Assembly: GCF_003058465.1 (NCBI RefSeq)
Contig: NZ_CP028901.1
Coordinates: forward strand, 2,356,001-2,420,000
Reading direction: 5' to 3'
DNA from: Orrella marina
GTDB lineage: Bacteria > Pseudomonadota > Gammaproteobacteria > Burkholderiales > Burkholderiaceae_B
DNA: 64,000 nucleotides
The translations under genes were made by a program, and so were the position numbers. Numbering within the stretch: position 1 is the stretch's first letter; every line of letters starts with the position of its first letter. This document shows positions 43,067 to 46,055 of the stretch, in pieces. Under the pieces are notes generated by a model. That model saw only the letters and a list, made by a program, of their open reading frames with translations. It had not been told where the DNA came from and searched no databases.

Positions 43067-43572
43067 TCAGTTTCCTTCTTGTTTGGCCAGACAGCGCGCG
43101 GCAGTGAAGCCGAATGTCATTGCTGGCCCAATCAATGAGCCACCGCCTGGATAACTACCTCGAAACACGCTGGCCATATCATTGCCAACCGCAAAAAGTC
43201 CAGGAATAACGCTTGAGTCGGTTCTTAACACCCGAGCATGTTCGTCGGTACGAATACCAGCAAAATTGCCGATATCACCGGCGTACATCCAGACTGCATA
43301 ATATGGGCCTTTGTCAAGAGGGGCCACATTCGGGTTGTAGCTATTGCCCGGGTCGCCTAGATAATGGCAGTAGAGGTCCTTGCCCTTGCCGAACTCGGGA
43401 TCCTCGCCTCGCTGGGCGTGAGTGTTGTAATTCGATATGGTCTCCTCCAGCACACTGGAATCTATTCCAATCCTCTCTGCCAGACCTCCAACGCTATCAG
43501 CACGAACCAAATATCCCGTTCGCAATAGATTACCTAAAGGCAAAAAGGGCTTGGCGTAACCAAGGCCGGGAC
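43067..43572 (-). pseudogene. FAD-dependent dehydrogenase C-terminal part, cut off by IS1634
   Basis: Reads GYAKPFLPLGNLLRTGYLVRADSVGGLAERIG through RGEDPEFGKG, GPYYAVWMYAGDIGNFAGI and the terminal FAD motif GLFAVGNDMASVFRGSYPGGG. This is the C-terminal ~165 residues of the fumarate-reductase/ketosteroid-dehydrogenase-like flavoprotein family. The gene is interrupted by the IS1634 element, and 27 codons are repeated on its far side. The FAD-binding N-terminus is absent from the window. Confidence 0.85.
43491..43572. repeat. Long direct repeat flanking IS1634, left copy
   Basis: 43491-43562 is identical to 45249-45320 (72 bp). The similarity continues, with GGCCG shared, up to the inverted repeat at 43573. 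It is interpreted as an unusually long target duplication of flavoprotein-gene sequence. Confidence 0.92.
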
Positions 43573-43588
43573 TCCCGAGTTCTGCCAT

Positions 43589-45130
43589 TTAGTACGTGTT
43601 TTCGAGTTTCAACAGCTCGGTCAGCTTTTTGATCACGGCGGATTCCGATTGCATCCTCAGGGGGTGGACGAACCCGGTGCGGTCGTCACGAATCCGGACA
43701 TCATGCACTTTCCACAACTCATCTCGAATTCGCCTGATCGACACACTGGTTTTGATTTCCAGATACTTCGCCATCATCAAGGCCATGAAGCAGGTGACGA
43801 TGTGCGAACGAATCGCGTCCTGCGTACGATGATAAATGGGCCGTGCCTGCAAATCTGACTTGCTGATCCGGAATGCCTGTTCGACATGCCAGAGGTCGTG
43901 ATAATGGCGCACCACGTCCTCATCAGACAAATCCTGTGGTGAGATATTGGTCACGTAACCCTTGATGCCAAGCAGCGTCTGCGCCTTTTCGTTGAGTTCA
44001 TCGTTGAACTCGAACTGGCCCTTGCTGTTGGACTTCTTGATGAATCGAGCCCTTCTGCCTGGCTCGTCGCGATCGAGCAGTGCTCGCGCACGGCTGACCT
44101 GTTTTTCGAGCTCTCGCTTGTCTTTCTTGTAGCGTGCGTCCGAGAACTGGCACACGATACTGACGTCAACTTGAACTTTGCTATTCCTGAGTGTGTGAGA
44201 GAACCGGCGCACAGCTTTGTCAATGCGTGGCATTTTTGCGTCGATCTGATCAATGAATGCCTTGCTGTGGTTGGCCAGTCGAGCCCCTACGATGTATCGA
44301 TAGCCTTGTTGCTGTAACTGGTGCATGTTCTCCGTCGAAAGCATGGCAGCATCGGCCACGATGACGGGTTTGCAAGCCGATCCGACACGTTGCTCAAAGC
44401 GCCTGAGAATGTCCAGCATCGTGTGACCTTCGAAGGTATTGCCCTCGAAGACTTCGTGCATGACGGGAAAGCCTGACGTGGTGGTGATCAGACCGATGAC
44501 GATCTGAGGTTGCTGGGGTTTGTTGTCTTTGGAGAAACCGGGTCGTTGAAAGTCATATTCCTTGAACGACTCGAAGTACAGCGTCGTGACATCATAGAGA
44601 ACCAGGTTCAACGGCTCCTTGAGCTCATTCTGCACCAGGGCAATGGCGGCTGACTCGATATGCGGTTGCTGCTCAACGAGTCGAGGCAACAAGCGGTAGA
44701 CGGTGCGCTCCGCATAGCGCACGTCAAAGTGTTCCTGTAGTCGTTGTAGAGTGCGCAGCTTGGAAGCTGGCTCAATGATCCGCATGAGGGCCAGATCGAG
44801 GTATAGCTCGTGCAGTTCGCTCAAACCGCAACGTTTGGCACAGGCCAGCAATGCCGAACGGGCAAACTGATGGGTGACGCCGATGACACTGGCGTGACGC
44901 ATGTCAACCGCTGGGGGTGGTGCCAGCTCCTCGGCAAAGAGACTGGGCTGCACGCAATGTGCCTCTGCGTAGCGATGGGCCTCGGCCAGCAGGGTTTGGA
45001 GGGTGCTGTCATCGTGCGCACTGCCCATGTGTTTGACGACCTCACAGCGCGATGCCTTGTATCGCACCACCTGAACGGCGGTCGCGCCTGATTTGGTCCG
45101 GGTCTTTCTGACGGTGAGATCTCCTCGCAT
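43589..45130 (-). CDS. IS1634-family transposase
   Basis: 513 residues from ATG 45130 (MRGDLTVRKTRTKSG). Conserved: LVLYDVTTLYFES around the first Asp, KPVIVADAAMLS with the second Asp, YIVGARLAN, and the YREN-like DLWHVEQAFRISKSDLQARPI with the catalytic Glu. Intact and of normal length. The open frame to 45199 adds an unlikely N-terminus. The AT-rich perfect hairpin upstream (45183-45213) may block transcription entering from outside. Confidence 0.93.
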   Translation of the reverse strand: MRGDLTVRKTRTKSGATAVQVVRYKASRCEVVKHMGSAHDDSTLQTLLAEAHRYAEAHCVQPSLFAEELAPPPAVDMRHASVIGVTHQFARSALLACAKRCGLSELHELYLDLALMRIIEPASKLRTLQRLQEHFDVRYAERTVYRLLPRLVEQQPHIESAAIALVQNELKEPLNLVLYDVTTLYFESFKEYDFQRPGFSKDNKPQQPQIVIGLITTTSGFPVMHEVFEGNTFEGHTMLDILRRFEQRVGSACKPVIVADAAMLSTENMHQLQQQGYRYIVGARLANHSKAFIDQIDAKMPRIDKAVRRFSHTLRNSKVQVDVSIVCQFSDARYKKDKRELEKQVSRARALLDRDEPGRRARFIKKSNSKGQFEFNDELNEKAQTLLGIKGYVTNISPQDLSDEDVVRHYHDLWHVEQAFRISKSDLQARPIYHRTQDAIRSHIVTCFMALMMAKYLEIKTSVSIRRIRDELWKVHDVRIRDDRTGFVHPLRMQSESAVIKKLTELLKLENTY

Positions 45131-45182
45131 GAGCGAAAAGATAGCATTTAGTACGTGTTTACGTCTTCTGGGAAATTGCAAG

Positions 45183-45213
45183 GAATTGAAAAATAACAAC
45201 TATTTTTCAATTC
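45183..45213. terminator. Perfect AT-rich hairpin inside the IS1634 end
   Basis: Arms GAATTGAAAAATA (45183-45195) and TATTTTTCAATTC (45201-45213) with a 5-base loop, between the transposase start and the right inverted repeat. Confidence 0.65.
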
Positions 45214-45248
45214 TCAATTTTTCTTAATAAAGTTGGCAGAAGTCAGGA

Positions 45249-45349
45249 ACGCTATCAGCACGAACCAAATATCCCGTTCGCAATAGATTACCTAAAGGCA
45301 AAAAGGGCTTGGCGTAACCATGGCCGTACTTGCTGAAAGCAGTTGCATC
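45249..45349 (-). pseudogene. FAD-dependent dehydrogenase fragment upstream of IS1634
   Basis: Codons for CDATAFSKYGHGYAKPFLPL through VRADSV continue the split flavoprotein gene on the other side of the IS. The first 82 bp (45249-45330) form the right copy of the long direct repeat. Upstream of about 45349 the similarity stops where TnpB-element DNA begins, so the gene's 5' part was lost in a separate event. Confidence 0.8.
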
Positions 45350-45395
45350 GCATTTGACATCCTCGCCCACCTGAAGAAAGGCGATTCCTACGGCG

Positions 45396-45745
45396 CTAAA
45401 CAAGAGCAAGCTCCTGCGTAGTCGCTTCGGCGGGTTCCTGCTTCGTCGGACGGCCCGACTGCACCGTTCCTCCACAGGCCAACACGGCATGTCCTGCCGC
45501 TAAGATATTGATCGCGCCGACGAGATCGGCGTTTTCCTCGAATCCACAGTCGACACAAGCAAAGCGGACTTGCGTCTGGCGGTTCTGCGCCGACACATGA
45601 CCGCAGCACGAGCAGGTACGGCTGGTGTTGCGTGGAATGACCGCCACCACCTGACCGCCTCGCCATGCCTGCTTATACTCCAGTTGCCGTCGGAACTCGA
45701 ACCAGCCTTGACGCAGCCGCTTGCCTCGGTCAAAGCAACTAATCT
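45396..45745 (-). pseudogene. TnpB (IS200/IS605) C-terminal remnant
   Basis: About 115 codons remain: GWFEFRRQLEYKQAWRGG, the zinc-ribbon CSCCGHVSAQ/FACVDCGF, and the last RuvC Asp in ENADLVGAINILAAG, ending EATTQELALV. The RuvC I and II motifs are absent. Upstream codons to 46028 are not TnpB-like, so the nuclease is dead. The 3' end and following ~50 bp could still encode part of a former omega RNA. Confidence 0.8.
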
Positions 45746-46055
45746 TATAGCCGGGATAAATGGAAACATGCGGCTTCTGCGTTGAATCGGTCAAGAGTTG
45801 CTTGTTTTGCCTGAGGCTGCCCGCGTTGTCGATTGACGGCAGCCTGGCATGCATGCTGGATTGCGCCCGCGAGGAAGGGACGCCGCCGGCCCTTGATCGC
45901 GGTGAGTTCCCCGGCTCAAGCGGCATCAAGCGCAGGCTTTTTCGGTAAGCCACTCTGGGAGCAGTTGGATTTCGTGCAGCCAGCGCCTCTATCCTTACAA
46001 CCATCGGCCAGCGCCCAGCGCGAGGCAATGACCGTGGCGGCGCACGTCAAGGGAA
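45746..46055. other. Unassigned stretch between TnpB remnant and the GGDEF-EAL gene
   Basis: No known protein family is recognisable. GC-rich, with one open minus-strand frame continuing from the TnpB remnant and probably resulting from a rearrangement. Confidence 0.35.

Follow-up and report, generated by a model that had tools for sequence, protein, structure and literature searches.

An IS1634-family insertion in a flavoprotein gene of Orrella marina and the long target duplications of its transposase branch

Within a 64,000-nucleotide stretch of the Orrella marina genome (contig NZ_CP028901.1; hereafter, the window), an insertion sequence of the IS1634 family interrupts a flavoprotein gene and stands between two copies of a target sequence (Table 1). 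The edges of the element were set by its inverted repeats, which are imperfect and match at 12 of 14 bp, along with the same end bases in two other full copies. Directly outside these edges, the sequence that begins at 43490 recurs at 45248-45320 as an identical run of 73 bases, which is far beyond chance for a repeat that touches both edges of an element. A preliminary description of this DNA had reported an exact repeat of 72 bp; the repeat is real, and the identical run is one base longer. A repeat search of the window returned the pair 43490-43568 / 45248-45326 (79 nt, 78 matching). When the edges of the insertion sequence copies are applied, the repeat extends to 84 columns with five ungapped mismatches, or to 83 bp with one insertion, and the 77 matches in 82 bp given earlier describe the same repeat.

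Table 1. The interrupted gene, the target duplication and the inserted element, in positions of the window.
Feature	Position	Strand	Basis
Flavoprotein gene, C-terminal remainder	43067..43489	-	PF00890 and NF004789 matches of 43067-43588
Left copy of target duplication, 84 bp, first base A, last T, reaches insertion sequence	43490..43573	.	flank comparison
IS1634-family insertion sequence, 1674 bp	43574..45247	-	length and edges identical in three genomic copies
Terminal inverted repeat CCCGAGTTCTGCCA, end downstream of transposase gene	43574..43587	+	sequence and copy comparison
Subterminal direct repeat, copy adjoining left inverted repeat	43586..43604	.	repeat search
Transposase, 513 aa from ATG (536 aa from TTG at 45199)	43589..45130	-	NF033559, PF01609
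Subterminal direct repeat, second copy, about 15 bp upstream of transposase ATG	45145..45163	.	repeat search
Terminal inverted repeat CCTGACTTCTGCCA, end upstream of transposase gene	45234..45247	-	sequence and copy comparison
Right copy of target duplication; 83 bp (to 45330) with one indel allowed	45248..45331	.	flank comparison
Flavoprotein gene, upstream remainder, then TnpB remnant	45332..45395	-	homology clear to about 45370

The gene at the repeat matches PF00890, with a fragment match to NF004789/PRK06134 below the whole-protein cut-off, in agreement with the earlier view that the repeat belongs to a flavoprotein gene. When the flanks are joined at one repeat copy, they form a continuous open reading frame; with E 1e-30 as the limit, it has matches in 10 of the 61 genomes searched, the host's own among them. 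The best homologue (genome G010, 61% identity) is a 572-aa frame that runs through the junction with one copy of the stretch, and all six aligned homologues, G010 and five others, cross the junction with the stretch present once. The open frame and these single copies bear out the proposal that the repeat is duplicated target. The preliminary description also proposed a search for the empty site in related genomes. At the protein level the six homologues supply it, and at the DNA level none was found for the window locus among the 61 genomes, own included; nor did we find an empty-site genome that already carried both copies. Beyond the right copy, flavoprotein homology fades near 45370 and is adjoined by the frame of a TnpB remnant (45396-46028; PF07282, with NF040570 below cut-off), so that only about 40-65 bp of the gene can be read on that side and the gene appears to have been broken twice.

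The two copies of the duplication differ by one A/T substitution after the 73 identical bases (43563 / 45321) and by an A-to-CC change 4 bp from the left joint (43569-43573 / 45327-45330). All of these changes fall within 11 bp of the left joint, and the element itself is identical over 1674 bp to another genomic copy. Judged by relatives, the left copy may be the older one at the substitution (Leu versus His), and the right copy at the A-to-CC site, a mixed pattern for which we have no explanation. Near both ends of the element there is a 19-bp direct repeat (18 of 19 matching), one copy of which lies just upstream of the transposase start. Direct repeats of a similar kind (CGCACTAA) are present near both ends in 9 of 17 scanned related loci from the GTDB contig scan described below. 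Such repeats could possibly act as an operator, or as a binding site by which the two ends would differ. A perfect 13-bp inverted repeat with a 5-base loop (45183-45213) also lies upstream of the transposase gene within the element.

The transposase confirms the proposed family: it matches NF033559 with 349 bits against a cut-off of 100 (E 3.9e-104). Membership in the IS4 family proper was considered and rejected, given that IS4 models score below their cut-offs (best 50.8 bits versus 115), that L413 stands in place of the YREK arginine, and that the duplications are 50-98 bp rather than about 10. Residues D180, D260, and E417, which we take as the DDE triad on the strength of their conservation, are conserved together with K424 in the aligned transposases used below (40 from elements with long duplications, 28 from elements with short ones). 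The position of the YREK arginine, four before the E, was taken from the spacing given in PMC2266710; Y410 and L413 are invariant in 58 close relatives, and W414 adjoins the arginine site. An AlphaFold model of the transposase (mean pLDDT 82) has the Tn5 transposase as its nearest solved fold (E 8.7e-08, TM-score 0.42 by query, 10% identity), and no solved structure matched the transposase by sequence at E 1 or better.

The host genome (G000; one contig, 4.23 Mb) contains three full copies of the element. One, at 604900-606573, equals the window copy in all 1674 bases, and the other, at 1978896-1980569, differs at 3. Both are bounded by perfect duplications, of 98 and 50 bp, that abut the two ends exactly. 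Short duplications at the other copies, an outcome that had been named as counterevidence, were therefore not found. With 83/84, 98, and 50 bp in a single genome, the length of the duplication varies from copy to copy. Two partial relatives in the same genome (82-83% identity) have flank matches of only 9-10 bp, which is chance level.

Long duplications arise by insertion. For example, an element with a 102-bp duplication on a plasmid of Rhodococcus sp. RDE2 has its empty site on a plasmid of Rhodococcus sp. PD04, where the 102 bp occur once with 0 mismatches and where the flank alignments overlap by exactly 102 bp. The same empty site is found on a plasmid of R. pyridinivorans, again in one copy, with 6 mismatches in 102 bp. 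(A search with the element flank of PD04 as query returned its own record only.) Likewise, two genomes of the same genus as G979 have, at the matching locus, only one copy of a 505-bp stretch that is duplicated in G979 (39 and 62 mismatches). The case of an Aliarcobacter element with a 680-bp duplication is partial: the relative has one match to the first 577 bases, and the similarity ends there. A tandem duplication that existed beforehand, with the element landing between its copies, would leave the same picture at a single locus, but repeats reach the insertion sequence in all three full copies of G000, related elements have single-copy empty sites, and relatives of the window gene are single copy, which makes this explanation scarcely credible.

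To place these lengths in the family, loci were collected from a scan of GTDB contigs (23 loci), from protein and model searches of genomes, for which counts are minimum values, and from plasmids (14 regions taken, with 60 of 62 matching records listed). Element edges were located as inverted repeats that start with C and have T at position 8, and the flanks were then compared. The duplication caller was tuned repeatedly on these very loci, and the end motifs that it used were drawn from confident calls; duplications of 7-13 bp were permitted, and none was retained. We assigned 159 loci to a long or a short side by their nearest transposase, which was the sole basis for loci whose ends were not found.

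Across at least 159 loci and 14 plasmid loci, there were 71 long duplications and 40 of 4-6 bp, the rest being absent or unreadable. Every short duplication was 4, 5, or 6 bp, while the 68 measured long ones ranged from 14 to 1253 bp with a median of 132.5. Among the 97 loci of the long side, 65 were duplicated, 12 had no duplication despite both ends and at least 500 bp of flank, 5 fell at contig ends, and the ends of 15 were not found. On the short side (62 loci), the corresponding figures were 35 duplicated, 14 without duplication with both ends, 3 without duplication and with less than 500 bp of flank, and 10 whose ends were not found; L085, being the same locus as L151, is outside the count of 35. 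No locus carried a duplication on the side opposite to its own length class. The plasmid loci gave six long duplications (608, 400, 102, 27, 680, and 33 bp), five short ones (5, 5, 5, 5, and 6 bp), and three unreadable cases.

Some long-side loci required judgment. Of the twelve without a duplication, all except L024 were read again by gapped alignment over flanks of 1.9-9 kb, and nine of these eleven again had none. At L096 the sole repeat was imperfect and began 88 bp away from the element, and we took it as no duplication. At L219, the left copy of a 161-bp exact repeat abuts the element, whereas 2.4 kb separate the right copy from the assigned end, perhaps owing to a later insertion; this locus was counted as lacking a duplication despite the repeat. 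The same description applies to L254 (genome G954). Repeats end short of one element end at L171, L172, L210, and L237, with an apparent second insertion in one copy at L210 and a run into N at L237. The first three entered the count at 136, 202, and 176 bp, one copy of each being assumed to have changed afterwards. Three other loci are among the long duplications and outside the 68 lengths: L215, with a repeat of about 410 bp whose edges were not found and which enters no length statistic; L018, with at least 629 bp at a contig end; and L237, with at least 59 bp. The shortest duplication on the long side, 14 bp, comes from one copy (L202). At the other extreme, L154 (1129 bp, genome G843) and L222 (1253 bp, genome G885) are cases where one insertion doubles a gene-sized segment.

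The distribution of lengths is fitted by a lognormal (KS p 0.79), and an exponential is not rejected either (p 0.16). No helical period was detected, in what is a weak test with 27 lengths of 105 bp or less. Lengths did not differ overall between the long sub-branches (Kruskal p 0.41); the sub-branch of the window is somewhat shorter at an uncorrected p of 0.02, with the lower bound of L018 taken as 629. We also considered error-prone gap filling as a general process, and 17 mismatches in 11,228 duplicated bases speak against it.

Once formed, the duplications can be reshuffled. In genome G177, two of four copies (L200 and L220) lack matching flanks of their own. Instead, each has a left flank that is an exact match, 156 bp long in one case and 281 bp in the other, to the right flank of its partner. 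The pair stand in opposite orientations with 43 kb between them, and a 43-kb inversion explains the swap, so that long duplications serve as labels of later rearrangement. Such an inversion does not account for every missing duplication, as the re-read long-side loci above show. Recombination of this kind lends some plausibility to a different origin of the repeats, in which two independent nearby insertions on sister chromosomes recombined and left one element in a duplicated target. Yet under that origin most copies would have required a pair of insertions no more than a few hundred bases apart, and the short branch should show the same outcome, whereas none of its 40 measured duplications exceeds 6 bp. 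We therefore regard it as very improbable.

Long duplications go with one transposase branch. In a tree of 81 transposases, from which 11 rows of unknown class were left uncounted, a single branch has the 42 long elements on one side and the 28 short ones on the other, without exception (SH-aLRT 99), and shuffled class labels need about 22 changes instead of one. A pruned tree that leaves out the unknowns and seven long-branched, fragmentary, or divergent rows gives the same split of 38 long versus 25 short, with a bootstrap of 100 and in 200 of 200 bootstrap trees. In both trees the program flags long-branch joins and uneven amino-acid composition, and because the tree is unrooted, a gain of the long class reads the same as a loss. 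The 11 plasmid elements with clear duplications, which were added after the first tree, all fell on the side that matched their length; among them, an element of Mycoplasmopsis (400 bp) and one of Mycobacterium riyadhense (608 bp) joined the long side. The preliminary description had treated the locus as one clear example and did not foresee a habit common to a whole branch of the family. Long duplications were known before for IS1634 and IS1549. In the literature searched, including PMC3053259, PMC8944449, PMC1798306, and PMC11004492, we did not meet the single-branch split, and no paper was seen, by title or abstract start and with most subscription journals outside the search, to map duplication length onto the family tree.

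The sequences on either side of this branch differ at a few positions. W414 and F448 are invariant in the 40 long rows and present in 29% of the 28 short ones, position 330 is S in 93% of the long and N in 75% of the short, and D260 is followed by R in 89% of the short rows and by varying residues in the long. No domain is specific to either branch, with none gained or lost among the same rows.

Both classes also occur side by side in one host. In addition to the window element with 83/98/50 bp, G000 has another element of the family (589 aa); of its three copies that were read, L109 and L139 have 6-bp duplications. Its third copy (L132) and a third IS1634-family element (L140; 600 aa, 55% alike) had no duplication, longer flanks included. 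Genome G843 holds the element with 1129 bp together with others that made duplications of 4, 5, and 5 bp, and one with none. The class thus goes with the transposase and not with the host, and comparison of the sequences suggests that long duplication is a trait of one branch of the IS1634 family. From what is established for DDE transposition, the gaps at new insertions are necessarily filled by the host, and so the length might be set by host factors instead of the transposase. Nevertheless, in G000 and G843 elements of the two kinds keep their own lengths within one host, and a single change on the transposase tree suffices to explain the class; we judge control by the host to be very improbable.

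The joints themselves carry information on how these insertions are made. The ends of long elements favour joining 5' of an A: among 61 long copies, 79% have this base as the first duplicated one, whichever end is considered. Specifically, 94 of 120 joints (60 copies) have A at +1, compared with 360 of 1200 positions further in (p about 1e-27); since copies are not independent, we also took one copy per element length, which gave 28 and 29 of 36. Short copies have T at +1 with A at +5, a pattern expected when two joints lie at a fixed distance. Because both joints of the long copies share one preference, which random repair would not produce, each end is a normal transposase joint. At +2, one of seven positions compared, the ends of the long copies differ (p 0.0007): purines are found in 53 of 61 at the end upstream of the gene and in 35 of 61 at the opposite end, which hints that the two ends play unequal parts. 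The A+T content of joints is slightly above that of nearby windows (0.601 versus 0.567), in part from the A at +1. Hairpins or terminators as preferred targets were rejected: 119 joints folded against neighbouring windows showed no difference (p 0.60). One joint of copy L003 is in a hairpin loop.

We are confident that an IS1634-family element entered the flavoprotein gene of the window and duplicated about 83 bases, as its branch does. Most DDE transposons have a fixed target stagger that is set by the geometry of the complex. In the window, the two element ends would have been joined to opposite target strands 83 bases apart, and filling of the long single-stranded stretches would then have yielded two copies of the target. 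The enzyme is probably of the cut-and-paste type, like that of Tn5. One end may join one strand first, and the second end may join the other strand later, at any distance and mostly on the side that gives a duplication. Indeed, distance seems to be free in the second joining, with direction mostly fixed toward duplication, given that 65 of 77 readable long-side loci (both ends, at least 500 bp of flank) have duplications. The remaining 12 of 77 leave room for some deletion-type insertions; on the short side, 14 of 49 lack a duplication.

A different arrangement would have both ends act together on a looped duplex target and catch two distant sites at once, which has the merit of explaining variable distance with an ordinary transpososome. 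Looping is expected to disfavour sites closer than about 100 bp, to show helical phase, and to yield deletions as often as duplications. Against these expectations, 27 of the 68 lengths are 105 bp or less and have no visible phase, although the phase test is weak, and duplications make up the 65 of 77 loci given above. Simultaneous capture on looped duplex is therefore unlikely, if the most serious competitor. Joining of the ends in two steps, on DNA that is probably flexible between the joints (unwound, single-stranded, or replicating), is the simplest reading and the one that we prefer. As a whole, this explanation is very probably the best one for the data, while its last step, the state of the DNA between the joints, is tentative.

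Taken together, these results could be accommodated by a single evolutionary switch in the IS1634 family, an idea that we put forward as plausible and somewhat speculative. On one side of the switch, transposition would be coupled, with a fixed stagger of 4-6 bp. On the other, it would proceed in two steps, with the second end joining about 14 to more than 1200 bases away, always to the same side, where unwinding or replication has opened the DNA. Few residues might make up this switch: W414 (beside the YREK site), F448, and S330, and in the short branch the R that adjoins the second of the conserved D residues. The long, unique duplications would be barcodes of later rearrangement. If length class is a branch trait and both kinds share a host, paired enzymes of one family become directly comparable, and the responsible residues and the state of the target become testable. 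Furthermore, every insertion with a long duplication doubles a segment of a gene and leaves a record from which later inversions between copies can be read.

The element can be set against known systems. According to PMC2266710, members of the IS1634 family are 1500-2000 bp long with ends of the form C.....YT, form three clusters, and have the DDE residues, whereas the YREK arginine is usually absent (5 of 32 have it). The window element fits this description in its 1674 bp, in its ends (CCCGAGTT / CCTGACTT), in its conserved DDE residues, and in L413 at the arginine site. It departs from the direct repeats of 5-6 bp in the general description of the family, with its own being 83/84, 98, and 50 bp; as the same source names IS1549 and IS1634 as exceptions, the longer repeats are no bar to membership. 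Members with 5-6 bp duplications share the NCBIfam model, the ends C.....YT, and the conserved D, D, E, and K, but they differ in a fixed 4-6 bp with a T...A preference and lie on the other side of the tree. Tn5 and IS50, which are related to IS4 and move by cut and paste, provide the nearest solved fold to the window transposase at only 10% identity, and the duplications of the IS50 group are 8-9 bp (table in PMC2266710). The closest counterparts are IS1634 of Mycoplasma mycoides and IS1549 of Mycobacterium smegmatis, which belong to the same family in other hosts and, as the preliminary description noted, make long and variable repeats, between them 8-514 bp (PMC2266710). The same paper (2008) states that a mechanistic model for these variable duplications had yet to be proposed. 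Like the two of them, the window element has long repeats that vary from copy to copy, here within one genome, and related mycobacterial and mycoplasmal elements, which stand in for the two type sequences in the tree, fall on its side.
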